A stretch of DNA of 64,000 bases from Subdoligranulum variabile. Lineage in GTDB: Bacteria; Bacillota; Clostridia; Oscillospirales; Ruminococcaceae. The notes under the pieces were generated by a model. It made no database searches. It saw only the letters and a program-made list of their open reading frames with translations, and was not told the origin of the DNA. Positions 23,847 to 43,737 of this stretch are shown here, in pieces. The DNA is taken from assembly GCF_025152575.1 (NCBI RefSeq), contig NZ_CP102293.1, forward strand, positions 2,418,001 to 2,482,000. Direction: 5' to 3'. A program made the position numbers and the translations under genes. The first letter of the stretch is position 1. Each line of letters begins with the position of its first letter.

Positions 23847-24280
23847 TCTGCCGGGCGACGGCAAAAGAAAAAAAGCCGTCGTTCAGCAGGCAATCGCCAT
23901 GCCCTAAATACACCTACGGCGGCTTTGACAAAATCAAGGCCGCCGTTCCTTATGCCCTCGACAAAGGAGTGACGACTACACGCTGACACGGCGGCTTTAG
24001 GAGGGAGCCGCCGTGAAGCAAAGACCGCTTCGACATAATTCGGCAGGGATTTACCTGTCAAAAAAAGCCTGACCGTCAATCGGCCTCCATCTGCTTATGA
24101 ACAGGCACTATCGTGGCTGGTTCGGAAGCACTATCAACCCCCTTTCAAAAGCGCCAGCCGCCGTTCTTCGGATGCTGGCGCTTTTGCTTGTCGTTTTTTC
24201 GGGAATTTCCCCGAACGGTGTCGCCCACCGCCTTCGTTTCGGTTCACCTGTCAACCAGTGAATTGAAACGGAGGTACATC
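23847..24280 (+). ncRNA. Structured leader of sigma cassette, copy A
   Basis: 434 bases without a gene, nearly wholly made of hairpins. CGACGGC/GCCGTCG lies at 23856/23875. ACGGCGGCTTTGA (23916) faces TCAAGGCCGCCGT (23934). ACGGCGGCT (23988) faces AGCCGCCGT (24006), with AGGAGGG in the loop. GAAGC/GCTTC is at 24015/24027 and GGCAGG/CCTGTC at 24042/24054. AAAAGCGCCAGC (24147) faces GCTGGCGCTTTT (24174), which is terminator-like, and TTCGGG/CCCGAA is at 24198/24210. The right arm at 23936-23946 can also pair with the left arm at 23988-23998, so the second and third hairpins are mutually exclusive. Repeated at 33683 and 42800. Confidence 0.6.
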
Positions 24281-24706
24281 ATGCAGAAGATCAATCTTCG
24301 GGACCTGTATCCCGATACATATAAAACTGATGTCTTTGTGGACGTAGCCGAGGAAGTCTTGGCCGCAATCCGGGGCCAGGAGCAGGACGATGCCGCCTAT
24401 GAGCGCCGGAAGTTCCGGCACAAGGCCCATTACTCTCTGAACCGGGAGGATGGCATTGAAAACGATGCCCTCAACCGGCCACTCACCCCGGAGGAAATCC
24501 TGGAGCAGAAGCAGCTGCGGGAAGAAGTGTATGCCGCGCTGATGAAGCTACCCGCCATCCAGGCCCGGCGTATCTACGCCCGGTTTTACCTGGGCATGAC
24601 AGTGGCCGAGATCGCCCAGATCGAGGGCACCGACCGCCGCCGTGTGTGGGACAGCATCCGGCGCGGGCTGAAGAAGCTGGCGCGTCTGCTGGACACGGCC
24701 CGGTAA
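24281..24706 (+). CDS. Sigma-70 region-4 protein, cassette copy A
   Basis: 141-residue sigma-like protein. Only a region-4 helix-turn-helix is clear (about residues 88-140: LMKLPAIQARRIYARFYLGM, VAEIAQIEGTDRRRVWDSIR). The N-terminal 85 residues are short and acidic and do not match region 2 well. Ribosome binding site ACGGAGG. It differs from copies B and C at five residues (Asp7, Thr12, Arg31, Asp36, and Asp for Ala in the VWDSI segment). Such sigma-like proteins recur in Tn916-type elements and are thought to regulate the element; the promoter it serves is unknown. Confidence 0.85.
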   Translation: MQKINLRDLYPDTYKTDVFVDVAEEVLAAIRGQEQDDAAYERRKFRHKAHYSLNREDGIENDALNRPLTPEEILEQKQLREEVYAALMKLPAIQARRIYARFYLGMTVAEIAQIEGTDRRRVWDSIRRGLKKLARLLDTAR

Positions 24707-24734
24707 CCTGACCGCCGCATAGCGGCAAAAAGAG

Positions 24735-24776
24735 AGCCGGTGGGGGTTCATTTATTCCTCCACCGGCTATTTACTT
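24735..24776 (+). terminator. Terminator of sigma cassette A
   Basis: AGCCGGTGG (24735-24743) pairs with CCACCGGCT (24760-24768) and ATTTACTTT follows. The same stem follows copies B and C. Confidence 0.7.
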
Positions 24777-24781
24777 TCCAA

Positions 24782-24892
24782 TTTAGCTCATCAGCCAATG
24801 CACGGGTCGAATTCAATAGAATCTTTCTGGCTGCCGGAGGACACGAAAGACAAAGTTGCAACATCTCATTCGCAGTTTGCTAATCTTCAGTC
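24782..24892 (-). pseudogene. Remnant of XRE regulator gene
   Basis: On the minus strand this piece reads QTANEMLQLCLSCPPAARK, then LLNSTRALADELN, preceded by an in-frame stop. It matches the C-terminal third of the intact XRE protein at 43737-44111 (QSANDMRQLYLSCPPAARK, ALADELKEM). The N-terminal DNA-binding half is missing. It follows sigma cassette A exactly as the intact gene follows cassette C, so copy A once had the same flank. Confidence 0.7.
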
Positions 24893-24919
24893 ATAGTGTC
24901 TTTTGCCTCTGGAACAATC

Positions 24920-24948
24920 TTGTGCTATTCGAGAAAACGAATTATAAT
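24920..24948 (+). promoter_or_regulatory. Likely promoter of HTH-regulator-kinase operon
   Basis: TTGTGC (24920-24925) and the perfect TATAAT (24943-24948) are spaced 17 bases apart, just ahead of GGAGGTG and the ATG at 24967. Confidence 0.65.
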
Positions 24949-24966
24949 AAGTTTGGAGGTGCATCT

Positions 24967-25161
24967 ATGGACTATATGACACTGAAGGAAGCAAGTGCAA
25001 TATGGGGAGTAACCCCACGCTGGATAAACTATTATTGTTCTTCTGGACGGATTCCTGGCGCAATAAAAATGGGAACCGTCTGGTTGATACCTAAAGATTC
25101 TCAAAAGCCCGCCGACAGAAGATTCAAAAGCACACGCTGTAAGGATGGTGAAAACAAATGA
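24967..25161 (+). CDS. Small helix-turn-helix protein
   Basis: 64-residue DNA-binding protein: LKEASAIWGVTPRWINYYC is a MerR/excisionase-like helix-turn-helix, followed by the wing GRIPGAIKMGTVWLIPKD. The ATG at 24967 follows TTGGAGGTG. Its stop overlaps the start of the response regulator (ATGA), so it is cotranslated with the two-component system. It may regulate the operon or be a leftover excisionase; neither is provable here. Confidence 0.78.
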   Translation: MDYMTLKEASAIWGVTPRWINYYCSSGRIPGAIKMGTVWLIPKDSQKPADRRFKSTRCKDGENK

Positions 25162-25850
25162 AGCACATTTTCTTTGTGGAGGATGACTTGAGTTTAATCA
25201 ACGGCCTATCCTTTGCAATCAAGAAGCAAGGCTATGAACTGACGATTGCGCGTACCAGCGTTGAAGCTGAACAGTTGTGGACGAATGGTAACTATGATCT
25301 TGTGATTTTGGATGTGACATTGCCGGACGGATCAGGCTTTGACCTGTGCCGGAAAATCCGGGCATCCTCCAAAGTGCCGATCATGTTTTTGACGGCTGCC
25401 GACGAAGAAACGGATATTATCATGGGTCTTGACATTGGCGGCGATGACTATATGACAAAACCATTCAAACTGGCTGTGTTCCTTTCCAGGATCAATGCCT
25501 TGCTGCGGCGTAGTGAAAACTTTAATCAGGAACAGGCTGAGACAGAGCTGCAATCCAATGGTATACAGATTCAGCTTCTCAAGCAAAAGGTTATTAAAAA
25601 CGGGACACCGCTTGACTTAACAGCCAGCGAATATAAATTACTGTGCCTGTTTATGGAAAACCCGAACATCATTCTTTCTCCAGAGCAAATTCTGAGCAAG
25701 CTCTGGGATTGTGATGAGAAATACATTGATAACAATACTCTGACTGTGTATATCCGGCGACTCCGAACAAAAGTAGAAGATAACCCTGCCGATCCTCAAA
25801 AGATTGTGACGGTCCGACGTATGGGGTATAAATGGAACACAACGGGATGA
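25158..25850 (+). CDS. OmpR-type response regulator (BceR/VanR-like)
   Basis: 230-residue regulator. The receiver has EDDLSLI, phosphorylatable Asp in LVILDVTLPDGSGF, and Lys in YMTKPFKLAV. The winged helix has CDEKYIDNNTLTVYIRRLRT and VTVRRMGYKW. It starts inside the stop of the HTH gene and ends 8 bases before the kinase. Two exporter operons downstream each carry the same palindrome at their -35 region, so it is the likely activator of both. Confidence 0.93.
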   Translation: MKHIFFVEDDLSLINGLSFAIKKQGYELTIARTSVEAEQLWTNGNYDLVILDVTLPDGSGFDLCRKIRASSKVPIMFLTAADEETDIIMGLDIGGDDYMTKPFKLAVFLSRINALLRRSENFNQEQAETELQSNGIQIQLLKQKVIKNGTPLDLTASEYKLLCLFMENPNIILSPEQILSKLWDCDEKYIDNNTLTVYIRRLRTKVEDNPADPQKIVTVRRMGYKWNTTG

Positions 25851-25858
25851 GGTGAGCC

Positions 25859-26896
25859 ATGAAAATACTGGTCAATCGAAAAATTAAACGGCTATTTCTG
25901 TGTGTGTTGCTATCGGTGGCAGTGTTCACCGCAGCTTCCGTTCTCACAATTTGCCTGGGACTGAATAACGCGGCCCTTTATGTGGCAATCGCTGCCGTGC
26001 TGATGACGCTCATCATTTTTGCTGCCCTGTATTGGTATTTTCGGGATCAAAGCAAAACCATGAATGAAGCCATAGCACAAATTCGGGAATATATTGCTGG
26101 GAACCGAAATGCCCGTATCGAATGCGATGATGAGGGTGATCTGTACAAGCTGTTCCATGAGGTCAATTCCCTGGTAACAATTTTGAACGCTCATGCCGAG
26201 AACGAAGGGCGCGCAAAAACCTTTATGAAGGATACCATTTCAGACATTTCCCATCAGTTGAAAACGCCATTGGCCGCTCTCAATATTTATAATGGTCTAA
26301 TGCAGCAGGAGGTAAACGACAGCCCGGAACTGAAAGAGTTCACCTCTCTCTCCGAGCAGGAATTAGATCGGATTGAAAACCTTGTCCAAAACCTTTTGAA
26401 AATCACAAAATTGGACGCGGGAACCATTACACTGGAAAAGCAGCCCCAAAATGTTGCGGATATGATGGGATATATTGAAAGGCACTTCGCTTACCAGGCA
26501 CAGCAGCAGGGAAAAACTCTTATTCTTTCAGGGGATGAGGAAGTCACCCTTGTTTGCGACCAGACCTGGCTGATCGAAGCAATCAGCAATATCGTGAAAA
26601 ACGCTTTCGACCACACAAAAGCAGGAGCTACCATCCGTATTGCATGGCGTGCTTTCGCTTCTATGGTGCAGATTATCGTAAGCGATAATGGCAGCGGTAT
26701 CCACCCGGAGGATCTGCCCCATATTTTTAAGCGGTTTTACCGCAGCCGTTTTTCCAAAGATACCCAGGGAATTGGCCTGGGATTGCCATTGGCGAAAGCG
26801 ATTATAGAAGATCATAATGGAACGATTGAGGTGAATAGTACGTTAGGTGTCGGTACGACCTTTACCATCAATTTTCTGAATCCTACAAAATTGTAG
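25859..26896 (+). CDS. Sensor histidine kinase
   Basis: 345-residue kinase with two close membrane helices (about 11-33 and 39-61) and almost no extracellular loop, the intramembrane-sensing layout of BceS-like kinases. A HAMP-like linker is followed by SDISHQLKTPLAALNIYNGL (phosphorylated His), then NIVKNAFDHTKAG, DNGSGIHPEDLPHIFKRFY and GIGLGLPLAKAI. Kinases of this layout usually need their ABC exporter to sense the antibiotic peptide; the exporter genes follow directly. Its last codons contain the left arm of the palindrome at 26879. Confidence 0.93.
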   Translation: MKILVNRKIKRLFLCVLLSVAVFTAASVLTICLGLNNAALYVAIAAVLMTLIIFAALYWYFRDQSKTMNEAIAQIREYIAGNRNARIECDDEGDLYKLFHEVNSLVTILNAHAENEGRAKTFMKDTISDISHQLKTPLAALNIYNGLMQQEVNDSPELKEFTSLSEQELDRIENLVQNLLKITKLDAGTITLEKQPQNVADMMGYIERHFAYQAQQQGKTLILSGDEEVTLVCDQTWLIEAISNIVKNAFDHTKAGATIRIAWRAFASMVQIIVSDNGSGIHPEDLPHIFKRFYRSRFSKDTQGIGLGLPLAKAIIEDHNGTIEVNSTLGVGTTFTINFLNPTKL

Positions 26897-26911
26897 GATT
26901 CCAGTCATAAT
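26879..26911 (+). promoter_or_regulatory. Palindrome over promoter of exporter copy 1
   Basis: AATCCTACA (26879-26887) and TGTAGGATT (26892-26900) form an inverted repeat. The -35-like CCTACA (26882-26887) is 18 bases from the -10-like CATAAT (26906-26911). The same core, with the same 78-base distance from TGTAGG to the start codon, occurs before copy 2 at 30554. Candidate response-regulator operator. Confidence 0.6.
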
Positions 26912-26969
26912 GCAGTAGGGTTGACGTGCTACTCTTTCTATACCAAAACAGAAAGAGGTGAACCACGAT

Positions 26970-27649
<680 letters not shown>

Positions 27650-27653
<4 letters not shown>

Positions 27654-29467
27654 GAAGTTATTTGAGCCTGATCCCCATCTCTGCAAAGGTTCACCGGCGG
27701 CAAAACCGCATGACGCTGCTCTGCATCATTTTCGCCGTGTTTATGGTCACAGCTATTTTCAGCATGGCGGAAATGGGCGCTCGGATTGAACAATCCAGGC
27801 TGTCAGATAAACATGGTGATTTTTCGCTCGTTGACAGTCTGGTGGACACCGTAATGGGACAGACGCTGATGGTTACGGCGGTTGTAATGTTTCTGCTGGT
27901 TCTGATTGCCGGGGTACTGATGATCTCCAGCAGCATGAACAGCAGTGTGGCGCAGCGCACTCAGTTCTTTGGCATGATGCGCTGCATCGGCATGAGTAAG
28001 CAGCAGATTATCCGCTTTGTCCGTCTGGAAGCCCTGAACTGGTGCAAAACCGCCGTTCCCATTGGCCTTGTCTTGGGAATTTTGGCTTCCTGGGTATTAT
28101 GCGCTGTCTTACGATTTCTTGTCGGGGAAGAATTCTCCAACATTCCGCTGTTTGGTATCAGCGGCATTGGAATTGTCAGTGGTATTTTGGTTGGTGTGAT
28201 TAGCGTCCTGTTGGCAGCGAGGACTCCGGCCAAACACGCCGCAAAGGTTTCTCCCGTTGCGGCGGTTACTGGAAATTCTGAAACGGTAAAAACGGGTCAC
28301 CACGCCGTCCATACAGGCTTTCTCAGGATTGAAACAACGCTGGGGGTTCATCATGCTGTGGCCGCAAAGAAGAACCTGTTTTTAATGATTAGCTCCTTTG
28401 CCCTGAGTATTATTCTGTTTTTGAGCTTTTCTGTCCTGATTGATTTTGTCGATCACCTGATGCCGCAATCGGCTGCCACCTCTGATATTGACATTTCAAG
28501 CAGCGATGGGGCTAATTCTATTGACAGCGATCTGGTGCAGACACTTACAAATATGGAAGGTGTCAAACAGGTTTACGGACGCAGAAGCAGCTTCGACGTG
28601 GCTGCTGGCCTGGACGGAGACACGACCCTTTCCAGCACTGTGGATTTGGTTTCCTTTGACGATTTTGACCTGAAGGCTCTCCAAAAAGACGGTACGCTTC
28701 GTTGGGGCAGTGACTTATCAAAGGTCTATGGCGACAGCGGGTATGTCCTTGCAACCTGGGATCAGAACAGTTCCTGGGCCGTAGGTGATACCATCCTTGT
28801 AGGGAACGAGCAGCTCACGATTGCCGGGCTGTTGAAATATGACCCGTTCAGCGGAGATGGCCTTACTGGCGGGAAGATCACGCTGATTACATCTGGCGAG
28901 ACATTCACCCGGTTGACTGGTATCACCGACTATTCACTGATTATGATTCAGACAACTTCCGGTGTAACGGATGAGGAAGTGGCCGCAATTCGTCAGATCG
29001 TGGAGCAAAACGGTTATACCATGAACGATAAGCGGGACGAGCGTACATCCGGCACCTATTTTGCCTTTGTTGCCTGCGTCTATGCTTTCCTTGGTATTAT
29101 CACGCTGGTTACTGTGATGAACATCATGAACAGCATCTCTATGAGTGTATCGGCCCGCATCAAGCAGTATGGTTCCATGCGGGCGGTGGGCATGGATGGC
29201 CGCCAGCTTTCCAAGATGATTCTGGCAGAAGCCTTCACCTATGCTTTTTGGGGCTGCTTCATTGGCTGCGCGATTGGCTTGCCCTTCAGCAAAATGATGT
29301 ACGATTTCCTTATCACAAACCAATTCCCTTATGCGTCCTGGAGCCTGCCTGTCGGGTCGCTGGCCGTCATCGTCCTGTTTGTCATTGCCGCGGCGGTGCT
29401 TGCCGCTTATTCTCCGGCAAAACGGATACGAACCATCTCGGTGACGGAAACCATCAACGAACTGTAA
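27650..29467 (+). CDS. FtsX/BceB-type permease, copy 1, short form
   Basis: 605-residue permease with FtsX domains: an N-terminal helix (about 20-38), a helix set around 65-190 (VLMISSSMNSSVAQRTQFFG, MRCIGMSKQQIIRFVRLEAL), a helix at about 240, a large extracellular domain, and C-terminal helices (YGSMRAVGMDGRQLSKMILA). Compared with copy 2 (776 residues) it lacks about 170 residues between the first and second helices, where copy 2 has a MacB-like periplasmic domain; only a stub remains (LSDKHGDFSLVDSLVD). The frame is open and the ribosome binding site good, so it may be a working short form. Coupled to the ATPase by ATGA. Confidence 0.9.
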
Positions 29468-29508
29468 CGGCAGTTATGAGCCGATACAAACATAGGGAAA
29501 AGCGCGCC

Positions 29509-30210
29509 ATGAGGACATTGAGAAAAACCATTGTGCGGCTGTTGCTTCTGGTAATTGCCGCAGCGGTTATGGCAGGATGTGTGTTGATTGGCCGTGGCTA
29601 CCAGATGTATCAGGCGGCGCTGACCCAGCAAAGTCTTGAAAGCAAAGTAGAGGAAATTCAGTCAGATCCGGGCTATACGGAATTATCAGGACTTCCTGAA
29701 ATGTATCTGAATGCCGTTGTGGCCGTTGAGGATCATCGTTTTGAACAGCATTTTGGAATTGATCTGATTGCCATAGGACGGGCCGCATGGAATAACCTAA
29801 CCACTTGGAGCCTGCGGGAAGGCGGCAGCACAATTACGCAACAGCTTGCAAAAAATATGTATTTCACGCAGGAAAAGAGCTTTATTCGCAAGGTAGCAGA
29901 AATGTTTATGGCGTTCCGGCTGGAACGCGCTTACACGAAAGAGGAAATTCTGGAGTTGTATGTCAATTCCATTTATTTTGGAGATGGCTATTACGGCATT
30001 GGTGACGCCTGCGAAGGTTATTTGAGTGAATCTCCCATTGAAATGACGGATTATGAGTGTACCCTCATGGCGGGGATTCCCAATGCGCCCTCCGTGTACT
30101 CCTTGACAGAAAATCCCGCTTTGGCGGAGCAGCGGCAGAAATATGTGGTCAAACAGATGGTAAAGTACGACTATATTACCGAAGATCAGGCAAAGACAAT
30201 TACAAAATAA
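29509..30210 (+). CDS. Monofunctional peptidoglycan glycosyltransferase (GT51)
   Basis: 233-residue membrane-anchored transglycosylase that polymerises lipid II into glycan. One N-terminal membrane helix (TIVRLLLLVIAAAVMAGC) is followed by the GT51 domain: AVVAVEDHRFEQHFGID with catalytic Glu near residue 73, EGGSTITQQLAKNMYF, RKVAEMFMAFRLERAYTKEE with second Glu and substrate-binding residues, and NSIYFGDGYYGI. No transpeptidase domain. The ATG at 29509 has AGGGAAA upstream; an ATG at 29476 would add MSRYKHREKRA and is a real alternative. It lies 41 bases after the exporter, so probably in the same operon. Extra glycosyltransferase could help survive lipid II-binding antibiotics. Confidence 0.9.
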   Translation: MRTLRKTIVRLLLLVIAAAVMAGCVLIGRGYQMYQAALTQQSLESKVEEIQSDPGYTELSGLPEMYLNAVVAVEDHRFEQHFGIDLIAIGRAAWNNLTTWSLREGGSTITQQLAKNMYFTQEKSFIRKVAEMFMAFRLERAYTKEEILELYVNSIYFGDGYYGIGDACEGYLSESPIEMTDYECTLMAGIPNAPSVYSLTENPALAEQRQKYVVKQMVKYDYITEDQAKTITK

Positions 30211-30224
30211 ATAGCGTCATACAT

Positions 30225-30267
30225 AAAAGCAACGGCTTTGAGATAACCATCAAGGCCGTTGCTTTTA
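30225..30267 (+). terminator. Terminator after the glycosyltransferase
   Basis: AAAAGCAACGGC (from 30225) pairs with GCCGTTGCTTTT (ending near 30265), with a second inner stem CTTTGA/TCAAGG. Strong intrinsic terminator. Confidence 0.85.
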
Positions 30268-30285
30268 TTGGCGCCGAATAGGCAT

Positions 30286-30545
30286 GATAAAATCCCCCAG
30301 TTCAACTGGGGGTCAATAAAATTACTTCAGTAAATGGAATAGGTTCCGGCGTTAGCCGGAACCTAAAGTGAAGGAATATGGTTTTGAATAGTGTACAGAT
30401 TGCTTGATATAGCCCCGTATAAGGGGCTTGCAGTGCAAAAGGTGTGATTGAAAAATAGTTCAATGCCCTCTTTAGAGGGCTACCACAGGAGATAGGCCCT
30501 TATAGGGCCTGTTCAAACCACCCGTTCAACGGGTGGTTTTGATTT
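30286..30545. mobile_element. IS200/IS605-like palindromic mini-element (PATE)
   Basis: A 260-base gene-free segment made of six short hairpins: CCCCCAG/CTGGGGG at 30294-30312; TAGGTTCCGGC/GCCGGAACCTA at 30340-30365; GCCCC/GGGGC at 30412-30426; GCCCTC/GAGGGC at 30465-30480; AGGCCC/GGGCCT at 30493-30510; and AAACCACCCG/CGGGTGGTTT at 30515-30539. The outer two hairpins have the same TTCAA loop and look like the left and right end hairpins of IS200/IS605-type elements. No TnpA gene is inside, so it would be non-autonomous. It separates the two exporter copies. Confidence 0.55.
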
Positions 30546-30553
30546 CTGCAATT

Positions 30554-30583
30554 CCTACAAAATTGTAGGGTTCTTGTCATAAT
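30554..30583 (+). promoter_or_regulatory. Palindrome over promoter of exporter copy 2
   Basis: CCTACA (30554-30559) and TGTAGG (30564-30569) are followed by CATAAT (30578-30583) at an 18-base spacing from CCTACA. It has the same layout as at 26879. Distance to the start codon is conserved, which argues that the palindrome is functional. Confidence 0.58.
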
Positions 30584-30641
30584 GCAGTAGGATTGACGTG
30601 TTACTCTTTCTACATCAAAACAGAAAGAGGTGTTACACGAT

Positions 30642-31321
<680 letters not shown>

Positions 31322-31325
<4 letters not shown>

Positions 31326-34545: not shown

Positions 34546-34573
34546 CCTGACCGCCGCACAGCGGCAAAAAAAG

Positions 34574-34607
34574 AGCCGGTGGGGGCAATTTGTCTCCATC
34601 GGCTTTT
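34574..34607 (+). terminator. Terminator of sigma cassette B
   Basis: AGCCGGTGG (34574-34582) pairs with CCATCGGCT (34596-34604, one G-T wobble) and a T tail follows. The same stem as in copies A and C. Confidence 0.75.
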
Positions 34608-35028: not shown

Positions 35029-35634
35029 ATGTCTGAAGTGAGTACGGACAAAAAACTGAAAGGAAAAGACCTCATTACAATCGGTATCTTTTCCGCAATC
35101 TACTTTGTCATCAACTTTGCCTTCATGCTTCTGGGAGGGATTCACCCTGTTCTTTGGATGCTGATGCCCGGCTTCATTGCTGCGTTTGCAGGCATTCCTT
35201 TTATGCTGATGGTCGCAAAGGTTCAAAAACTGGGTGCAGTTTTCCTGATGGGGCTTATCACTGCTCTTATCTATTTTGTCACTGGACAATTTACCCTGGT
35301 AATTCTGATCTCGATGGCTTCTACCTGTATTTTGGCCGAAGTTGTCCGAGCTGTGACTAAGTATAACAGCTTCAAGGGAAATTCGATTGCCTATGTGATT
35401 TTTTCGCTGGGAATGGTTGGTTCTCCCCTTCCCATCTGGTTGTTTAAGGCCGATTTCCTGGCGCAGATTACAGAACAGGGAATGCCCGCTGATTATGTTG
35501 CGGCAGTTGAAGCTCTGTCGTCCAATGCAATGTTAATCGTTCTGTTTGTTGCTCCAATCATCGGTGGTATCATCGGTGCATTTATTGCCAGAGGTTTGTT
35601 CAAAAAGCACTTTGTAAAGGCAGGAATTGTGTGA
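35029..35634 (+). CDS. ECF transporter substrate-binding (S) component, MptD-like
   Basis: 201-residue membrane protein with about six helices. The N-terminus KLKGKDLITIGIFSAIYFVI and central FALMLL/GGIHPVLWMLMPGF-type segments fit the MptD family of putative ECF S components (TIGR02185-like). S components catch the small-molecule substrate outside the cell. Strong AAGGAGG before the ATG. Followed by the T and A components with overlapping ends. The substrate is not readable; context with a DtxR-like regulator suggests a metal chelate or cofactor. Confidence 0.85.
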   Translation: MSEVSTDKKLKGKDLITIGIFSAIYFVINFAFMLLGGIHPVLWMLMPGFIAAFAGIPFMLMVAKVQKLGAVFLMGLITALIYFVTGQFTLVILISMASTCILAEVVRAVTKYNSFKGNSIAYVIFSLGMVGSPLPIWLFKADFLAQITEQGMPADYVAAVEALSSNAMLIVLFVAPIIGGIIGAFIARGLFKKHFVKAGIV

Positions 35635-36317
35635 TGAATGGGGCGGGCAAAAAACATACATTAAGGTTCGATCCACGGACGGAATTGCTTTTGCTGGTGC
35701 TGGCAAATATTGTGGCCTTTACCCAGCACTCCGTATGGGTCGAAATTACATGGGTTGTTTTTCTGCTCCTGCTGATTGTTGCCTGCGGGTGCCAAAAATC
35801 CGCAGGCAAACTGGCAATCGCATTTGGGATTTGTCTGGCGCTGCAATACTATGTATTCCCAAACGGGCCAAAAATTTTAGCCAGCAGCTTCACGATCATC
35901 GTATCGTATGCAAGAAAGATTTTCCCTTGTTTGATTGTCGGTACGATGGTTTTACAGAAAACGCCCGTCCGGGAATTGATGGTTGCCCTTCGGAAATGGC
36001 ATATCCCGCAGGGACTGATTATTCCTTTGTCTGTAACCGTCCGGTATTTTCCGGCCTTGAAAGAAGAAACCAGCTATATCCGGGATGCCATGAAGCTCCG
36101 TAATATTCATGGGGTACAAAAAATTGAGTGCTTATTGGTGCCGACCATGATCTCTGCAACAACGACAGCGGAAGAATTGTCCGCAGCCGCTGTTACGCGG
36201 GGCATTGAAAATCCTGCGCCAAAGACCAGCATGATTGAAATGAAGTTCGGCGTGCAGGACTTTTTATGTTTGGCGGCAGGTGTGGTTTTCTGTGTGATTT
36301 CAATTACAGTGGGATAA
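35634..36317 (+). CDS. ECF transporter T component (CbiQ/EcfT-like)
   Basis: 227-residue membrane protein linking the S component to the ATPase. It has about five helices and the coupling segment RELMVALRKWHIPQGLIIPL, which holds the conserved Ala-Arg-Lys/Gly-type motif; TRGIENPAPKTS lies near the end. The ATG at 35634 overlaps the S-component stop (TGATG); a GTG at 35631 is possible. Stop is 13 bases before the ATPase start, and AAGGAGG lies between. Confidence 0.88.
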   Translation: MNGAGKKHTLRFDPRTELLLLVLANIVAFTQHSVWVEITWVVFLLLLIVACGCQKSAGKLAIAFGICLALQYYVFPNGPKILASSFTIIVSYARKIFPCLIVGTMVLQKTPVRELMVALRKWHIPQGLIIPLSVTVRYFPALKEETSYIRDAMKLRNIHGVQKIECLLVPTMISATTTAEELSAAAVTRGIENPAPKTSMIEMKFGVQDFLCLAAGVVFCVISITVG

Positions 36318-36330
36318 GGAGGTGTTCCAT

Positions 36331-37755
36331 GTGATCCAAATTCAGGATGTATCGTTTGAATATGAGAAAGAGCAGGGAACGCTTTCCCATATTGATTTGA
36401 ATATCCAACAGGGAGAATGCGTTGTCCTTACAGGGGAGTCGGGCTGTGGCAAAACAACAGTGACAAAACTGATTAACGGCTTAATTCCTCATTTTGTCGA
36501 GGGCGGCACTTTATCTGGCCGGGCGATTGTAAACGGTATGGAAGTGCCGAAAACAGAAATGTACCGTCTGGCAGAGCAGGTTGGATCTGTGTTCCAAAAT
36601 CCGAAATCTCAGTTTTTCAATATTGACTCGGACAGCGAAATCACTTTCGGTCTGGAAAATGCGGGTGTCGAACCAAAGAAAATCAAAGAGCGATATGAGG
36701 CCACTGTTTCCGCCCTGAAAATTCAATCGCTTTTGGGAAGGAACATTTTTTCCATGTCTGGCGGAGAAAAACAAAGTCTTGCGTTTGCCTCTGTATATGC
36801 CATGAACCCATCTATTTTTGTACTGGACGAGCCGACGGCAAATCTGGATGCTGACGCGATTGACACCTTACGCCAGCAGATTATCCAGATCAAAAAAGAA
36901 GGACGGACGGTTGTTATTGCCGAACACCGCCTGTATTTCCTGATGGACCTGATTGACCGCGCAATCTTCATTCAAAAGGGGAAAATCGTTCAGATATTTT
37001 CCGGGGATGAGTTTCGTAATCTTTCAGATGAGCAGCGTATCAGTATGGGGCTTAGAAGTCTTGTCCATCCTGTGCTGGAGCTGCCTCCCGCCGATCCGCC
37101 AGGAGCGCAGGAAGGCTTATCCGTAGAAAATCTTTCCTGTGCCTTTGATAAGCAGCCGGTATTCAGCGGCCTCGGCTTTTCTGCAAAACGGGGTGAAGTG
37201 TTGGGGATTGTCGGTCATAACGGCGCAGGAAAAACGACGATGACACGCTGCCTGTGCGGGCTTTTGAAAGAAGTGAATGGAACGGTCCGGCTGGACGGAC
37301 AAACACTGAAAGCAAAACAGCGTAATAAGGCCAGCTTCTGCGTGATGCAGGATGTGAACCATCAGCTTTTTTCAGACAGCGTATGGAACGAATGTGAACT
37401 GGCGCAGCCGGATTGTCCGCCGGAGCGGATTGAAGAAATTCTCAGGTCTTTTGATTTGCTGGATTTCAAAGACCGTCATCCGATGGCCCTGTCAGGAGGA
37501 CAGAAACAGCGCCTTGCGGTGGCAACCGCTATTCTCTCCGACAAGGATGTGCTTGTCTTTGACGAGCCTACCAGTGGGCTGGACTATCATCGTATGCTGG
37601 AAGTAAGCGACATGATCCGCAAGTTGAATGATGAAAATAAAGTTATCATCATTGTTTCCCATGATTTTGAGTTTTTGGGCCGGACTTGTGATAAAATATT
37701 TAATATGGAGGGATGCTCCAAAGAAACACCCTGTGGGTGTAACTGGAGGGCGTGA
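36331..37755 (+). CDS. ECF transporter double ATPase (EcfA1-EcfA2 fusion)
   Basis: 474-residue protein with two ABC ATPase domains in one chain. Domain 1 has Walker A GESGCGKTT, signature MSGGEKQSLAFAS and Walker B IFVLDEPTANLD. Domain 2 (from about residue 265) has GHNGAGKTT, LSGGQKQRLAVAT and VLVFDEPTSGLD. It energises the S/T pair. GTG at 36331 is chosen because AAGGAGG lies 7 bases ahead; a GTG at 36322 overlaps that site. A fused ATPase is usual for this transporter type. Confidence 0.92.
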   Translation: MIQIQDVSFEYEKEQGTLSHIDLNIQQGECVVLTGESGCGKTTVTKLINGLIPHFVEGGTLSGRAIVNGMEVPKTEMYRLAEQVGSVFQNPKSQFFNIDSDSEITFGLENAGVEPKKIKERYEATVSALKIQSLLGRNIFSMSGGEKQSLAFASVYAMNPSIFVLDEPTANLDADAIDTLRQQIIQIKKEGRTVVIAEHRLYFLMDLIDRAIFIQKGKIVQIFSGDEFRNLSDEQRISMGLRSLVHPVLELPPADPPGAQEGLSVENLSCAFDKQPVFSGLGFSAKRGEVLGIVGHNGAGKTTMTRCLCGLLKEVNGTVRLDGQTLKAKQRNKASFCVMQDVNHQLFSDSVWNECELAQPDCPPERIEEILRSFDLLDFKDRHPMALSGGQKQRLAVATAILSDKDVLVFDEPTSGLDYHRMLEVSDMIRKLNDENKVIIIVSHDFEFLGRTCDKIFNMEGCSKETPCGCNWRA

Positions 37756-37790
37756 AAAGCACGCCAAACAGAGGAAAGGAGGCAGCGTCT

Positions 37791-38750
37791 ATGCCGGAAT
37801 TATTCCAGGAAATGTACTACGGCCCGAATGTTCAAAACCTGGTCGAGTCCGATGATTGTAAGGTCATGCGTTTAAGTGATAACTCCGGTGAAGGCATGAT
37901 GACGCTCTATCATGTCTTTCCCGGTGTATTTCTCATGTATAATGATTTCCACATGAAGGAGTGCATTTCGGGCTTCCAGACAGATATGGATCTGCTCTGT
38001 ATTGACCACTGCCGGGAAGGGCGCATTGAACAGGAAGTCGGCCAGAATGCCTTTAGCTATTTGGAGGCTGGCGATCTTCGGGTGGATCGCCGCATCCATC
38101 ATTCCGGCAAGGTGGAATTTCCACTTTCTCACTACCACGGCATTTCCATTGGCTTTCAGATGGAGATTGCGGCAAAAGAAATCCCGGCCTCTATGAAAGG
38201 CTTTTCTGTGGATCTTTATGAATTGCAGAAAAAGTATTGCAGTGACCGTACACCCTATGTCATTCCAGGAGAACCGGCCATTGAGCATATTTTTTCCGAA
38301 CTCTACAATGTGCCGGTCAAAATCAAAAAGGACTATTTCAAGATTAAGGTGTTGGAGCTGCTGCTGTATCTGGACGCGCTGGAACTTTCAGGCCATACAG
38401 AAGAACGCCCCTATTTTTATAAAGGCCAGATTGAAAAAATCAAAGCGATCCAGGCACTTCTGACGCAGGATTTGACAAAAAACTATACTTTGGAAGAACT
38501 CTCCGCGCGGTTTGATATTGCCCTGACCCCTATGAAAAACTGTTTCAAATCGGTATATGGCAGCCCGATTTTTACATACATGAGAAACTATCGCATGAAC
38601 TATGCTGCCTCTTTACTGAAATCAGATAAGTCGTTGAAAGTGGCTGAGATTGCGGGACTTGTGGGATATGACAGTCCCAGCAAATTTGCGTCCGCATTTC
38701 ATCAGACAATGGGGAAAACGCCGCTGGAATATCGAAAATCAATTATCTGA
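37791..38750 (+). CDS. AraC-family regulator
   Basis: 319-residue activator. The N-terminal domain is about 190 residues (MPELFQEMYYGPNVQNLVES), with a YLEAGDLRVDRR region, and would bind the effector. The C-terminal domain has two helix-turn-helices: YTLEELSARFDIALTPMKNC, and VAEIAGLVGYDSPSKFASAF with the end HQTMGKTPLEYRK. This architecture is that of YbtA/PchR-like regulators that respond to siderophores. ATG at 37791 follows AAGGAGG. The repeated motif at 34901 and 38753 is its probable binding site. Confidence 0.9.
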   Translation: MPELFQEMYYGPNVQNLVESDDCKVMRLSDNSGEGMMTLYHVFPGVFLMYNDFHMKECISGFQTDMDLLCIDHCREGRIEQEVGQNAFSYLEAGDLRVDRRIHHSGKVEFPLSHYHGISIGFQMEIAAKEIPASMKGFSVDLYELQKKYCSDRTPYVIPGEPAIEHIFSELYNVPVKIKKDYFKIKVLELLLYLDALELSGHTEERPYFYKGQIEKIKAIQALLTQDLTKNYTLEELSARFDIALTPMKNCFKSVYGSPIFTYMRNYRMNYAASLLKSDKSLKVAEIAGLVGYDSPSKFASAFHQTMGKTPLEYRKSII

Positions 38751-38752
38751 TT

Positions 38753-38804
38753 GGAATAAAAAAGGCCGTGTGGAGCGGAAAGAAAAATTGAATTGTGATA
38801 GCAT
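38753..38804 (+). promoter_or_regulatory. Candidate AraC operator before the exporter pair
   Basis: Second copy of the 29-base motif (38753-38781), with TAGCAT at 38799-38804, at the same 18-base distance as upstream. It begins 3 bases after the araC stop. A terminator hairpin follows at 38807, so if the promoter is real the first bases of its transcript enter that stem. Confidence 0.5.
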
Positions 38805-38806
38805 TG

Positions 38807-38839
38807 AGGATGGTTAGCGAAGATTAACCATCCTTTTTT
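38807..38839 (+). terminator. Terminator or attenuator between araC and exporter genes
   Basis: AGGATGGTTA (38807-38816) pairs perfectly with TAACCATCCT (38825-38834), and five more T follow. It can end the ECF-araC transcript, or act as a leader attenuator for the exporter. Confidence 0.8.
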
Positions 38840-38876
38840 CTTTGCTGGCTAAATTGATCGAGAGAGGTGAATTGAT

Positions 38877-40658
38877 ATGAAGCAGCAAAAAGAGCATTGG
38901 GTCAAAACACTTTTCTCTTTTGCAGGTCCCTGCAAGGGGAAAATGACCCTCTCGGTTTTGTGTGCCATTTTAAGTGTTGTCGGAGGCTTTGTTCCGTTTT
39001 GGGCGGTGTATGAAATCCTGCTCCTGTTCATTAACCGGACCGCTACTTTGAACAACATTATGCTCTGGTGTTTGGTGGGCGTGGGCGGATACCTGATCCG
39101 CGTCATCTGCTTTGGCATTTCCACAATTTTGGCACATATCTCCGCTTACACGATACTGGAAGGCATCCGCCTGAAAATTGCAAACCGTCTGATGAGGGCG
39201 CCTCTTGGCGAAGTAATGGGACGAAGGATTGGGTATTTGAAGAATATTATCATGGACAAGGTGGAGGATTTGGAGCCGCCTCTGGCCCACATGATCCCGG
39301 AGCTGACATCGAACCTGCTCCTTCCGATTGCCATTTTTATCTGGATGCTGGCGATTGACTGGCGTTTGGGCCTTGCAGTCCTGATTGCCCCGGTTCTGGC
39401 CATGATCCCCATGTTCTTTCTCATGCGGAACTATAACAGCCAGTACGCAGCTTATATGGAGGCAAACAATCATGTAAACAATGTCATTATTGAGTATGTG
39501 GAAGGCATTGAGGTTGTTAAGGCGTTCAATCAAAGCACCAGTTCCTATGAAAAGTTTGTAGGAGCGGTAAAGTCCTTTAAGGATTTTACTCTGGCATGGT
39601 TCAAGAGTACCTGGAAAACAATGAACCTGATGATGGCGATTATGCCCACCACCCTGTTGGGGGTACTTCCCATCGGTTTGCTGCTGGCGCAGAGTGGAAG
39701 TATCACGCCTGCTGAATTGGCGATGGGAATTATTCTTTCGCTGAGTATTGTCGGCCCGCTGATGAAAGCTACTACTTTTATCAACGAGGCAAAGTCAATG
39801 GAGTATGCAGTAGAAGCCGCAAATGAACTTCTGAACCTGCCTGTATTGCCGGACTCTGGAAAGATTGTTCCGATCAGGCACACAGATATTGTTTTACAGA
39901 ATGTGTCTTTCTCCTATGATGGCACCGGGCAAAACGAAGTGCTGCATGACATCAGCCTGAAAATGCCGCAGGGAAGTTTTACAGCCCTGGTTGGGCCATC
40001 CGGCGGGGGCAAGTCCACCGTTGCCCGACTGATTGCTCGATTTTGGGATGTGACCGGCGGCAGTATCTCCATAGGCGGTACGAATATCAAGGAACTTTCC
40101 ATCCGGCAGCTTTCCGAATTGGTCAGTTTCGTGACACAGGACAATTTCCTGTTCAACTGCTCTCTCAAAGAGAACATCCGCCTGGGTAATCCAAATGCTA
40201 CGGATGAGGAAGTATATGCCGCCGCAAAAGCGGCCTGCTGTGATGATTTCATTGTCCGGCTGGAAAAAGGATATGATACCCCGGCCGGTGACGCTGGCAA
40301 GCGGCTCTCCGGCGGAGAAAAGCAACGAATTGCCATTGCGAGAGCAATCCTGAAAAATGCGCCTATTGTGATTTTGGACGAGGCAACTGCCTTCACTGAC
40401 CCGCAGAACGAAGATAAAATCCAGAAATCCATCATGGCCCTTTCCAAAGGAAAGACCCTGCTGGTGATCGCACATCGTCTGTCTACCATTCAAAACGCAG
40501 ATCAGATTGTCGTTCTGAAGAAAGGGCAGATTGTTGACTGCGGAAAGCAGGAGGAACTTTTGGAACGCTGCCCGCTTTATACAGATATGTGGCAGGCGCA
40601 TATTGGCGCAAAGAACTGGTCTGTGGGCGAGAAAAAGGAGGTGGGTGTCAATGTTTAA
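38877..40658 (+). CDS. ABC half-transporter (permease-ATPase), first of pair
   Basis: 593-residue fused ABC protein. Six membrane helices (about 15-300) are followed by an ATPase with Walker A GPSGGGKST, signature LSGGEKQRIAIARAIL and Walker B IVILDEATAFTD (Ala-Phe-Thr-Asp where ATSALD is common). It resembles YbtP/YbtQ-type exporters/importers that handle siderophore complexes. The next gene overlaps by 8 bases, and the two proteins should form a heterodimer. Substrate inferred from context. Confidence 0.9.
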   Translation: MKQQKEHWVKTLFSFAGPCKGKMTLSVLCAILSVVGGFVPFWAVYEILLLFINRTATLNNIMLWCLVGVGGYLIRVICFGISTILAHISAYTILEGIRLKIANRLMRAPLGEVMGRRIGYLKNIIMDKVEDLEPPLAHMIPELTSNLLLPIAIFIWMLAIDWRLGLAVLIAPVLAMIPMFFLMRNYNSQYAAYMEANNHVNNVIIEYVEGIEVVKAFNQSTSSYEKFVGAVKSFKDFTLAWFKSTWKTMNLMMAIMPTTLLGVLPIGLLLAQSGSITPAELAMGIILSLSIVGPLMKATTFINEAKSMEYAVEAANELLNLPVLPDSGKIVPIRHTDIVLQNVSFSYDGTGQNEVLHDISLKMPQGSFTALVGPSGGGKSTVARLIARFWDVTGGSISIGGTNIKELSIRQLSELVSFVTQDNFLFNCSLKENIRLGNPNATDEEVYAAAKAACCDDFIVRLEKGYDTPAGDAGKRLSGGEKQRIAIARAILKNAPIVILDEATAFTDPQNEDKIQKSIMALSKGKTLLVIAHRLSTIQNADQIVVLKKGQIVDCGKQEELLERCPLYTDMWQAHIGAKNWSVGEKKEVGVNV

Positions 40659-42399
40659 GTCAATGAAACGCATTATCCGATGGGCTGGTAAATATAAAGG
40701 CCGCCTCTATCTTGGCTCTGTGTGTTCCTTTTTCAGCAGTTTGTCTACTGCCATTCCTACAATGGTAGCCGCATTCGCACTGGATAAAGCGATCCAGGCA
40801 TACTGGACGAATACTGCGATTGATACTGTTTTAATCTGGCAAATGCTGGGGATCATTATTGGCTCGATTGCACTGAACTTCCTGCTTTCTTATCTCCGGG
40901 CAGTATTGCAGGAAAGCATTGGATATGAAGTGGCCGCCGGACAGCGCATTCATTTGGGCGATGTACTGAAACGGGTTCCCCTTGGATACTTTTCGCAGAA
41001 CAGTGTCGGTGACATTCTGGCAGGTGTTACCACGGAATTGTCTACTTTGGAATTACAGGGCATGAAAATGGTGGATGTCATCATCAATGGATACGCAAAG
41101 TTTATTGCCATCGTTTTATGTCTGATCTTCTTCAGCCCCGTTGCTGCGGTTATTTCCATTGTCGGCGTTGCTCTTTCGGCGCTGGCTTTGCAAGGGATCA
41201 GCAGACACAGTGAAAAAACCGCTGCAACAACCCATAAAGCAATGGAAGATATGTCCGGCGCAGCGATTGAATACATCCGGGGACTTTCCATTGTGAAGTC
41301 TTTTGGACAGGAAGGAGCCTCTATTGAGAACTTTCGTAATGCCAGTAAAGACCTGAAAGATATTCATATCAAGGTGGAAAAAGGCTTTACCCCCTTTAAC
41401 TGTCTGCATTTGTTTGCCTTAAAACTGGCTTCGATGGGAATTGTCTTTATTTGTGCATGGCAGGCGTTGCAGGGACAAATGAGTATAGCATTCTTCCTGA
41501 TGTTTGTTCTGTTCTCTTTTGTGATGTTTGGCAGCGTGGAGAATATCAATGACGCAGCCCATATGCTTGGAGTTGTGGACTCTGCTATGAATAAGCTGGA
41601 AGCATTGGAGAATGTAAACTATATCGACCAGGATGGCACCGACATAAAACCGGCAACCTATGATATTGAGTTTAGGGATGTTTCTTTCGGATATGACAGC
41701 CGGATTGTTCTGCATGACCTGAACTTCAAAATTCCGCAGAATAGTACAACGGCCATCGTGGGGCCATCTGGCAGTGGAAAATCTACGCTGTGTAACCTGA
41801 TTGCCCGTTTTTACGATGTTAACAGCGGAATGATTACCATTGGTGGAACGGATATTCGCAGATTTACCTGCGATAGTCTGCTCAAAAATATCAGTATGGT
41901 TTTTCAGAATGTCTATTTGTTCCGGGATACCATCAAGAATAACATTAAATTCGGCAGCCCGGACGCTACGGATGAGCAGATTGTCGCCGCCGCAAAAGCC
42001 GCCCGCTGTCATGACTTCATAATGGCTTTGCCAGACGGATATGACACGGTGATTGGTGAAGGGGGTTCTTCTCTTTCCGGCGGTGAAAAGCAAAGAATTT
42101 CTATCGCCAGGGCAATGCTCAAGGATGCTCCCATTGTTATCTTGGATGAGGCAACAGCAAGCATTGACCCTGAGAATGAGCATTTGATCCAGGAAGCTAT
42201 TTCTGCCCTGACACATGGCAAGACCATTATTACGATTGCCCATCGCCTGGCTACGATTGAAAACGCCGACCAAATCCTTGTGATTGATGGCGGGACGGTG
42301 GCCCAGAGAGGTACACATAGGGAACTGCTGCAACAGGAAGGGACTTATAAAAAGTTCATCCAAATCCGTGAACAAGCCGAAGGCTGGCGGATAGAGTAA
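40651..42399 (+). CDS. ABC half-transporter (permease-ATPase), second of pair
   Basis: 582-residue partner. Six membrane helices, then an ATPase with Walker A GPSGSGKST, signature LSGGEKQRISIARAML, Walker B IVILDEATASIDPENE and switch His in ITIAHRLATIE. The start overlaps the first half-transporter (GGAGG lies 10 bases before the ATG). Followed after 11 bases by a DtxR-like regulator, which favours metal or siderophore traffic over drug efflux. Confidence 0.9.
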   Translation: MFKSMKRIIRWAGKYKGRLYLGSVCSFFSSLSTAIPTMVAAFALDKAIQAYWTNTAIDTVLIWQMLGIIIGSIALNFLLSYLRAVLQESIGYEVAAGQRIHLGDVLKRVPLGYFSQNSVGDILAGVTTELSTLELQGMKMVDVIINGYAKFIAIVLCLIFFSPVAAVISIVGVALSALALQGISRHSEKTAATTHKAMEDMSGAAIEYIRGLSIVKSFGQEGASIENFRNASKDLKDIHIKVEKGFTPFNCLHLFALKLASMGIVFICAWQALQGQMSIAFFLMFVLFSFVMFGSVENINDAAHMLGVVDSAMNKLEALENVNYIDQDGTDIKPATYDIEFRDVSFGYDSRIVLHDLNFKIPQNSTTAIVGPSGSGKSTLCNLIARFYDVNSGMITIGGTDIRRFTCDSLLKNISMVFQNVYLFRDTIKNNIKFGSPDATDEQIVAAAKAARCHDFIMALPDGYDTVIGEGGSSLSGGEKQRISIARAMLKDAPIVILDEATASIDPENEHLIQEAISALTHGKTIITIAHRLATIENADQILVIDGGTVAQRGTHRELLQQEGTYKKFIQIREQAEGWRIE

Positions 42400-42410
42400 G
42401 GGAGGTCTTA

Positions 42411-42782
42411 ATGAAACTTCATGCGTCCGGGGAGGACTACCTGGAAACCATCCTTGTTCTCCAAAAGAAACTCGGTATGGTACGCTCCGTAGATGTGGCC
42501 CGGCACATGGAGGTGTCAAAGCCCAGCGTGTGCCATGCAGTGGCTACCTTGCGGGACGGCGGCTTTCTCACGATGGACGAAGATCACTTTCTCCATCTGA
42601 CCGATGTGGGCCGCGAGGTTGCCGAAAAAATCTATGAGAGACATTGTTTCTTTACCGAGCAGCTTATTGCCGCAGGTGTTGACCCCAAAACTGCGGAGGC
42701 CGACGCCTGCCGGATTGAACACATCATCAGTGATGAGAGCTTTTCACGGCTGAAAGAGGCAGCCGAACAAGAACAGGACTAA
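42411..42782 (+). CDS. DtxR/MntR-like metal-dependent regulator
   Basis: 123-residue regulator. The winged helix is ASGEDYLETILVLQKKLGMV, then RSVDVARHMEVSKPSVCHAV with the recognition helix. The dimer and metal-binding part contains RHCFFTEQLIAAGVDPKTAE, DACRIEHIISDE, whose His and Glu residues fit metal ligands of the family. It lacks the SH3-like domain, as MntR does. Last gene of the block; it ends 18 bases before cassette C. It probably reports metal status to this cluster. Confidence 0.88.
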   Translation: MKLHASGEDYLETILVLQKKLGMVRSVDVARHMEVSKPSVCHAVATLRDGGFLTMDEDHFLHLTDVGREVAEKIYERHCFFTEQLIAAGVDPKTAEADACRIEHIISDESFSRLKEAAEQEQD

Positions 42783-42799
42783 ATTAAATAATCGAGACT

Positions 42800-43250
42800 A
42801 TCCTGCCCCGGTAAACGGGGAAAGAAAAAAACCGTTGCTGGGGTAGGTAGTTTCGTGCGCCCATTACATAACTTTATCCAGACGGCGGTTTTGAAATACA
42901 TTTCAAGGCCGCCGTTCTCTATGCCCTTATGAGGATGACGACCCTGTGCTGAATGTAACGGCGGCTTTAGGAGGGAGCCGCCGTGAAGCGAGAACAGCTT
43001 CGACATAATTCGGCAGGGATTTACCTGCCAAAAAAAGCCAGGCCGCCAACCGGCCCCCATCTGCTTATGAACAGGCACTATCGTGGATGGTTCATAAGAC
43101 CTATAAGACGCATATAAAAAGCGCCAGCCACCGTACATCGGAAGCTGGCGCTTTTCCTTGTCGTTTTTTCGGGAATTTCCCCGAACGGTGTCGCCCGCCG
43201 CCTTCGTTTCGGTTCACCCGTCAACCAGTGAATTGAAACGGAGGTACATA
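42800..43250 (+). ncRNA. Structured leader of sigma cassette, copy C
   Basis: 451 bases. From about 42891 it aligns with copies A and B: ACGGCGG-TTTTGAAA facing TTTCAAGGCCGCCGT, with a longer stem and a G-T pair where A has G-C; then ACGGCGGCT/AGCCGCCGT, GAAGC/GCTTC, GGCAGG/CCTGCC, AAAAGCGCCAGC/GCTGGCGCTTTT and TTCGGG/CCCGAA. The first 90 bases differ in sequence, but a hairpin in the same place (CCCCGGTAA with TTGCTGGGG) is kept. Structure is thus better kept than sequence. Confidence 0.6.
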
Positions 43251-43676
43251 ATGCAGAAGATCAATCTTCGGGAGCTGTATCCCGATGTGTATAAAACCGA
43301 TGTCTTTGTGGATGTGGCCGAGGAAGTGCTGGCCGCGATCCAGGGACAGGAGCAGGGCGATGCGGCCTATGAGCGTCGGAAGTTCCGGCACAAGGCCCAT
43401 TACTCTCTGAACCGGGAGGATGGCATTGAAAACGATGCCCTCAACCGGCCGCTCACCCCGGAGGAAATTCTGGAGCAGAAGCAACTGCGGGAAGAAGTGT
43501 ATGCTGCGCTGATGAAGCTGCCCGCCATCCAGGCCCGGCGTATCTACGCCCGGTTCTACCTGGGCATGACGGTGGCCGAGATCGCCCAGATCGAGGGCAC
43601 CGACCGCCGCCGCGTGTGGGCGAGCATCCGTCGCGGGCTGAAGAAGCTGGCGCGCCTGCTGGACACAGCCCGATAA
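43251..43676 (+). CDS. Sigma-70 region-4 protein, cassette copy C
   Basis: 141-residue sigma-like protein identical to copy B. Region-4 helix-turn-helix at about residues 88-140; start after GGAGGTAC. It converges with an XRE regulator gene, and the two share a bidirectional terminator. This copy has the most complete flank and may be the ancestral arrangement. Confidence 0.85.
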   Translation: MQKINLRELYPDVYKTDVFVDVAEEVLAAIQGQEQGDAAYERRKFRHKAHYSLNREDGIENDALNRPLTPEEILEQKQLREEVYAALMKLPAIQARRIYARFYLGMTVAEIAQIEGTDRRRVWASIRRGLKKLARLLDTAR

Positions 43677-43704
43677 CCTGACCGCCGCACAGCGGCAAAA
43701 AAAG

Positions 43705-43737
43705 AGCCGGTGGGGGATTTTTATTCCTCCACCGGCT
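43705..43737. terminator. Bidirectional terminator between sigma C and XRE gene
   Basis: AGCCGGTGG (43705-43713) pairs with CCACCGGCT (43729-43737). The minus strand has a run of seven T after the stem; the plus strand has TTATTT. Confidence 0.75.

Follow-up and report, generated by a model that had tools for sequence, protein, structure and literature searches.

A leader RNA and a sigma-like gene recur at the ends of three cargo blocks in a Subdoligranulum variabile mobile element

A unit made of a structured leader RNA and a sigma-like gene closes each of three cargo blocks of a mobile element in Subdoligranulum variabile, carried on a stretch of 64,000 nt (GCF_025152575.1, NZ_CP102293.1, positions 2,418,001-2,482,000, forward strand; hereafter the window). 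A conserved RNA begins 14-33 nt past the end of each block and is followed by a sigma-70 region-4 gene whose copies differ by mostly synonymous changes. We read the three copies, with a probability of about 55%, as the 3' regulatory ends of three cargo units gathered in one slot, involving serial growth of the slot and read-through control of the sigma gene. Judged from the sequence, the leader may tie the use of each cargo block to the control of the element, its most likely function being to pass some cargo transcription on to the element regulator.

Comparison of the window with itself returned a unit of ~0.9 kb in three direct copies starting at 23847, 33683, and 42800, each composed of a leader of 434-451 nt, a 141-aa open reading frame (ORF) that begins with ATG and matches Sigma70_r4_2 (PF08281), and a terminator (Table 1). 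An earlier note on this DNA had reported such copies, starting 15-35 bp after the stop codon of a cargo block, and both points held: the ORF is present in all three copies, and the measured gaps between cargo stop codon and unit are 14, 33, and 18 nt. The three distinct cargo blocks described there were likewise recovered with Pfam and NCBIfam, as a LanFEG-type, a BceAB-like, and an ECF/ABC/DtxR-like block. The statement that no known insertion sequence accounts for the arrangement also agrees with our results, as sigma is the sole gene found in the unit and the copies have no common right end. The unit does not show the marks of an insertion sequence or transposon; no transposase was found within it, and terminal repeats were judged by eye only.

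Overall likeness among the copies is 85-93%. The sigma protein is the same in copies 2 and 3, and that of copy 1 is 96% identical to it. Not one of the 426 coding nucleotides distinguishes copies 2 and 3, while their leaders are only 76% alike; over one 60-column stretch the leader of copy 3 is identical to that of genome G026, and the leader of copy 2 to those of G014 and G007. Between copy 1 and the other sigma copies there are ~22 synonymous and 7 non-synonymous changes, giving a dN/dS of 0.08 from few pairwise comparisons. These differences fit recombination between cassettes together with selection on the protein. Copy 3 begins with a leader of a divergent subtype, with compensating changes, that is also found in loci L223 and L224 and in one copy of L226. 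Simple duplication of a segment in tandem, or an error of assembly, could explain the overall likeness of the copies and the identical coding sequences of copies 2 and 3, but it is hardly credible, as the DNA blocks separating the copies are unrelated to each other, the leaders differ, match different relatives, and fall in two subtypes, and the genome is a single contig of 3.24 Mb with two further, diverged copies 6.7 kb apart. Truncated backbone genes 3' of copy 1 (a helix-turn-helix gene) and of copy 2 (tnpV, 3' half) also speak against a tandem duplication. Because leaders and blocks differ, we regard the tandem-duplication reading as already refuted.

The leader consists, in order, of hairpin A with an A-rich loop of ~12 nt, the terminator-like hairpin B, hairpin C around a Shine-Dalgarno (SD) sequence and start codon, a short leader peptide, and hairpin D, after which the sigma gene follows. 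The two copies that were folded, copies 1 and 3, fold better than shuffled sequences (z = -9.73 and -9.05, respectively). In 36 distinct sequences, the modeled partners pair in 96% of cells, and changes on both sides are seen for 18 of 22 pairs; shuffles gave 5.1 such pairs and slid controls 5-7. As the sequences had been aligned to the model, the structure was favored in this count, and hairpin A is nearly invariant in a plain alignment. The A-rich loop is kept while the stems change. The leader alignment drew on the 154 contexts that remained of 178 matches once identical contexts had been dropped: 106 of the 154 were kept and thinned to 50 unlike sequences, 37 of which were used together with copy 3 and L048, added by hand, and the other 13 were dropped by hand, mostly as shorter or odd. 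A search of 4227 Rfam models gave zero matches in the window at the gathering threshold, the best in 33600-34800 having an E value of 1.4 and 19.9 bits against a cut-off of 67. The leader is a widespread conserved RNA without an Rfam match. The hairpin-A pattern, which was used to find most loci and fixes the first 9 nt, matched 48 times in 28 of 394 genomes of the order, versus once for the reversed pattern, and is present in at least 119 stretches of named genomes plus 6 viral contigs. Lachnospiraceae, Oscillospiraceae, and other Clostridia make up most of the hosts among the matches listed, which include one Enterococcus cecorum. Searching with a covariance model of hairpins A and B (E <= 1e-4) gave matches in 16 genomes out of 391 from the class and in 5 out of 299 from the phylum, the S. 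variabile genome being in both sets.

A pairing of the A-rich loop (AAAAGAAA) with the complementary U-tract UUUCUUU 3' of hairpin B was also considered as part of the fold, and was dropped for want of covariation. None was seen because the loops hardly vary: only 2 of 130 scored loops lack G, and both tails still contain C. At ~6110 in L133, the DNA directly 3' of hairpin B resembles, by eye, the start of a group II intron; some group II introns target terminators.

What adjoins the leader on its 5' side, which the earlier note had proposed to record, is in most cases the end of a gene. In 97 of 144 contexts (from the 154), an ORF of at least 100 aa in the same orientation ends between -12 and 60 nt from the hairpin, compared with 7.4% of random positions in the same loci. 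The genes themselves are diverse, since the 111 nearest upstream ORFs (those of the 154 contexts with an ORF of at least 90 aa ending within 90 nt of the hairpin) fall into 44 families; single family representatives include ABC-2 permeases, FtsX, BacA, VanY, MATE, an ABC exporter, an ECF transporter, and a beta-lactamase-like protein. L204 has three leaders (L097 is the same DNA and was counted once), of which the second ends a block of response regulator, histidine kinase, and unknown protein with a gap of 11 nt, and the third ends a block of response regulator, histidine kinase, ABC, FtsX, and VanY proteins with a gap of 9 nt. Relatives of the recombinases, relaxase, helix-turn-helix (HTH) protein, or DUF6870 protein of the window, or of a tyrosine integrase, are found in the flanks of 49 of the 119 named-genome loci, a count made with no control.

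The left edge of the leader is sharp. Among 123 pairs of loci with leaders at least 88% alike and unrelated upstream genes (49 loci, 25 families), the shared sequence breaks off 8-12 nt 5' of GACGGC in 117 cases; this position coincides, within ~3 nt, with the base of hairpin A. The right border of the unit is ragged, and in loci without sigma the homology often stops between +59 and +143, after hairpin B or C. The unit does not look like an autonomous module, as sigma is the only gene, the right border is ragged, and L040, L041, and L044 carry sigma without the leader hairpins. A sharp stop in 117 of 123 pairs is what might be expected if the unit served for docking, with the 5' base of hairpin A as a recombination site for cargo under a logic like that of attC ends, worked by an unknown recombinase or by cutting of folded DNA. 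We consider this quite unlikely: because the search pattern fixes the first 9 nt, only the failure of the shared sequence to extend further is informative, a functional constraint starting at hairpin A would give an equally sharp edge, the right borders are ragged, and the frequent G-U pairs in helix B point to RNA. A shared regulatory unit, the other possibility raised in the earlier note, appears better supported than docking and is the reading we favor.

On the 3' side, the first ORF past the leader is Sigma70_r4_2 (E <= 0.01) in 79 of the 116 loci in which a first ORF was found; 28 of the 154 contexts were too short 3', and the 116 ORFs have 116 different leaders, four of them from the S. 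variabile genome itself. An OmpR-type winged helix without a receiver domain replaces sigma in nine places (three in L204, two in L205, and one in L065, all six in genome G174, and L037, L061, and L179), with a weak further match in L074. PF00486 was confirmed for two of these that were tested as proteins and for two among the first-ORF set. That another type of regulator can occupy the same place suggests selection for the leader-regulator arrangement itself. In other elements (L021-L023), one leader is followed by runs of different sigma region-4 genes.

Among 147 leaders of sufficient length, an SD and start codon occupy the expected place in 125, an A-run is present in 107, and both are present in 101. 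Lys-Lys (AAA AAA) lies in frame 0 in 91 of these 101 scorable leaders; the other 46 of the 147 were unscorable, lacking the SD/start or the A-run. Many of the peptides stop directly past KKA in frame 0, and many others ~16-18 codons further on. A leader peptide in a conserved frame, one of the features by which an attenuator is recognized, is thus predicted here. A scan for the sigma-70 consensus only found promoter-like sites in 7 of 32 distinct leaders versus 17% in shuffles, which is no enrichment, and a terminator-like stem precedes sigma in 16 of the 32 versus 2.5% in shuffles, mostly ending 108-137 nt upstream of the gene. Because promoters are not enriched, a terminator-like stem stands before sigma, and the gap to the cargo is short, read-through from the cargo appears the likeliest source of sigma mRNA.

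The same hairpins might instead be, first of all, the 3' end of cargo mRNAs, with A and B acting as stabilizer and terminator, sigma being an independent backbone neighbor and the extra copies hitch-hiking with block transfer. Such an account would suit the terminator-like character of B, the occurrence of the hairpins with sigma, with the OmpR-type regulator, or with neither, and the frequent end of homology after B or C in sigma-less loci. We hold it to be possible, though distinctly the less probable outcome, because no sigma copy is disrupted and the changes among the three are mostly synonymous, and because an SD, a leader peptide, and a second terminator recur between B and sigma.

Relatives of the element point to how the slot was filled. 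In L039, L041, and L044, the order is relaxase, LB (the left border of the cargo slot, conserved over ~85-130 bp and possibly, at a guess, part of the transfer origin), several kb of other, partly annotated DNA, sigma, and DUF6870, and from such relatives the backbone plan can be read as relaxase, border sequence, one cargo slot, sigma, DUF6870, and integrase. Sigma is present in L040, L041, and L044 without a significant match to hairpins A and B (best E value 0.33, in L044), which makes it a gene of the backbone, and the hairpins seem to come with the cargo. A second element in the S. variabile genome has two leader-sigma cassettes, the first preceded at 57 nt by the end of a BceAB-like stretch and the second preceded by a relative of block 1. 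In L037 (G014), block 1 and its cassette (96% over 7.7 kb) are joined straight to the backbone, and in L038 the cassette and backbone of copy 3 (94% over 7.2 kb) have other DNA upstream. Two or three leaders, all in one orientation, are found in nine loci (the window, L036, L037, L039, L204-L207, and L226), and opposed leaders in two (L209 and G171:C23); these multi-leader loci were mostly chosen because a search had already shown several copies. Multi-copy loci recur (two copies in the second S. variabile element, three in L204, two in L205, and two in L207), but most canonical hairpins among the 48 matches in 394 genomes occur singly: a same-strand neighbor lies within 20 kb for 13 of the 48, of which four belong to the S. 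variabile genome, and many contigs are short. Serial growth of the cargo slot, by recombination with related elements, is the best reading of the array.

Under the mechanism we propose, the element would be ordered as relaxase, LB, cargo, leader and sigma, HTH, DUF6870, and recombinases. Blocks would have been added singly by recombination with related elements that bear the leader-sigma unit, these additions leaving truncated backbone genes between the blocks, and gene conversion would keep the sigma genes alike; the way in which cargo came to join so sharply at the first hairpin is likewise inferred. Sigma would be made mainly by read-through of the cargo transcript past hairpins B and D, with the leader and its peptide as the gate. 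Whenever a block is induced by an antimicrobial or metal signal, sigma would rise and act on promoters of the element or of the cargo. As any induced block would raise sigma, three blocks would amount to three inputs to one regulator.

Several observations weigh against serial growth with read-through control. A recent transfer might also account for the identity between copies 2 and 3, and few pairwise comparisons underlie the dN/dS values. The first leader of L204 starts 373 nt past the nearest ORF, the first leader of L036 has no gene before it on its strand and retains just a fragment of sigma, and, contrary to a strict rule, the second leader of L206 lacks a sigma match and its first lies across the relaxase from the slot. 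The first downstream ORF is other than sigma region 4 in 37 of the 116 loci, and at some loci the hairpins occur without any regulator, so that A and B must have a role independent of it. A simple terminator scan of copies 1 and 2 flagged B only in copy 2 and D in neither. A competing antiterminator, as in classical attenuation, was not found in 16 leaders: the candidate pairing of the 3' region of the peptide with hairpin D gave no signal (mean z -0.05) and was rejected.

Among known systems, Tn916 appears to be the nearest studied parallel. Its orf7, a gene for a sigma-like protein of ~140 aa, lies between the tet(M) cargo and xis/int. The sigma described here is also a region-4 protein, of 141 aa (PF08281 in all three copies), and is also placed between cargo and a recombination module, its 3' neighbors being HTH, DUF6870, and serine recombinase genes in the window and a tyrosine integrase in L036, L037, and L039. 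Unlike orf7, the present cassettes occur in three copies with a structured leader, without promoter enrichment for the sigma-70 consensus, and with an RNA that has no Rfam match. The element genes of Tn916 are transcribed from Porf7, and canT, a structured RNA between orf8 and xis that acts in cis in processive antitermination, controls the transfer genes together with Porf7 (PMC11658703). Compared by that description, the leader would resemble canT, whose action has been shown, as a structured cis RNA within an integrative element and accompanied by terminators.

Part of the unit is matched by 152 plasmid records, 146 of them from Enterococcus, mostly over leader nt 1-107, and a relative of the sigma protein (<60% identity) occurs in 36 plasmid records, 33 from Enterococcus. 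In the three Enterococcus bcrRABD plasmids that were opened, the leader (77-79% identity) lies 26 nt 3' of bcrD in each, with a sigma-70 gene next in one and an IS6-family transposase next in one; unlike the window, each opened stretch has one copy, and the leader breaks off at ~+118 in two of the three. The SD, the short peptide, and, in 16 of 32 leaders, a terminator-like stem before the gene recall ribosome-mediated attenuators, from which the leader differs in that no mutually exclusive antiterminator was found (16 leaders) and in having hairpin A and an extra terminator-like hairpin upstream. Integron attC cassettes have RYYYAAC/GTTRRRY core sites at both hairpin ends and usually hold one promoterless gene each. 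In contrast, the window and L204 have blocks of several genes that include two-component systems, and in the alignment, inspected by eye, the attC core is absent at the ends of hairpin A, which begins TCTGCC and ends GCAGA. The literature searched, consisting of titles and abstract openings with subscription journals mostly outside, does not name the leader or its per-block copies, and within that literature the RNA leader and its use at each block look undescribed.

If the link from cargo to sigma is true, transfer or maintenance of the element would respond to every antimicrobial that induces a cargo block, and one conserved RNA would link the antimicrobial-peptide defense of gut Clostridia to the bacitracin resistance of Enterococcus plasmids. 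The leader also offers a sequence handle for locating cargo ends where element boundaries are difficult to draw and, as an RNA without an Rfam entry, has a function accessible to simple reporters. More broadly, hairpins A and B could be a general cargo-end tag of Bacillota mobile elements, an undescribed RNA class that gates read-through, out of whichever resistance or transport operon precedes it, into a mobility regulator of the sigma region-4 or OmpR type and whose first base is also the cargo joining point, with elements growing by sensor-plus-cargo units that report to the same regulator; we regard this generalization as unlikely.

Table 1. Features of the window around the three leader-sigma copies
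Feature	Position	Strand	Remarks
Copy 1 hairpin A, A-rich loop	23847..23890	+	
Copy 1 hairpin B, terminator-like	23917..23945	+	not flagged by simple terminator scan
Copy 1 hairpin C, encloses leader-peptide SD	23988..24014	+	
Copy 1 leader peptide, 19 aa, ends SKKA	24013..24072	+	
Copy 1 hairpin D before sigma, terminator-like in sequence	24150..24182	+	not flagged by simple terminator scan
Copy 1 sigma-70 region-4 gene, 141 aa	24281..24706	+	Pfam PF08281
Copy 1 terminator 3' of sigma	24734..24768	+	
Copy 2 hairpin A	33683..33726	+	
Copy 2 hairpin B, terminator-like	33752..33781	+	flagged by simple terminator scan
Copy 2 hairpin C	33827..33853	+	
Copy 2 leader peptide, 19 aa	33852..33911	+	
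Copy 2 hairpin D	33989..34021	+	not flagged by simple terminator scan
Copy 2 sigma-70 region-4 gene, 141 aa	34120..34545	+	coding sequence identical to copy 3
Copy 2 terminator	34573..34604	+	
Copy 3 hairpin A, divergent subtype	42802..42847	+	
Copy 3 hairpin B	42883..42914	+	
Copy 3 hairpin C	42958..42984	+	
Copy 3 leader peptide, long form, 44 aa	42983..43117	+	
Copy 3 hairpin D	43120..43152	+	
Copy 3 sigma-70 region-4 gene, 141 aa	43251..43676	+	
Copy 3 terminator	43704..43737	+	
Cargo block 1: VanZ/RDD protein, histidine kinase, response regulator (-); LanFEG-type ABC exporter and 179-aa protein (+)	17388..23832	both	Pfam/NCBIfam
Cargo block 2: HTH, response regulator, histidine kinase, two BceAB-like pairs, transglycosylase	24889..33649	+	Pfam
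Cargo block 3: ECF S component, CbiQ, ABC, AraC, two ABC exporters, DtxR/MntR-like repressor	35029..42782	+	
Relaxase	8944..10407	+	Pfam PF03432
LB, conserved left border of cargo slot	17222..17358	.	directly 3' of relaxase gene in L039, L041, L044
Remnant, C-terminal part of backbone HTH gene	24769..24888	-	3' of copy 1; gene intact 3' of copy 3
tnpV remnant, C-terminal half (profile 61-111 of 111)	34611..34775	+	Pfam PF14198; 3' of copy 2
Backbone HTH_3 gene	43737..44111	-	
Backbone DUF6870 gene	44598..45038	+	
Three large serine recombinases	45125..49962	+	

Further features of the element were noted outside the three copies. The sigma-DUF6870 end is followed by tyrosine integrases in L036, L037, and L039 and by large serine recombinases in the window, L038, and L040, a swap of integration module. 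Within block 2, the BceA-like gene region is duplicated in the window at 26873-31431 (92% over 889 nt). Between the relaxase and LB, an extra block opens with sigma (regions 2 + 4) and DUF4367 genes at 10600-11789, likely a sigma/anti-sigma pair, and the search with the model of hairpins A and B found no leader hairpin at this block. An IS110-family transposase lies on the minus strand at 13892-15136, in the block before LB, and a further sigma-like match is found past the recombinases, on the minus strand at 52625-53026.

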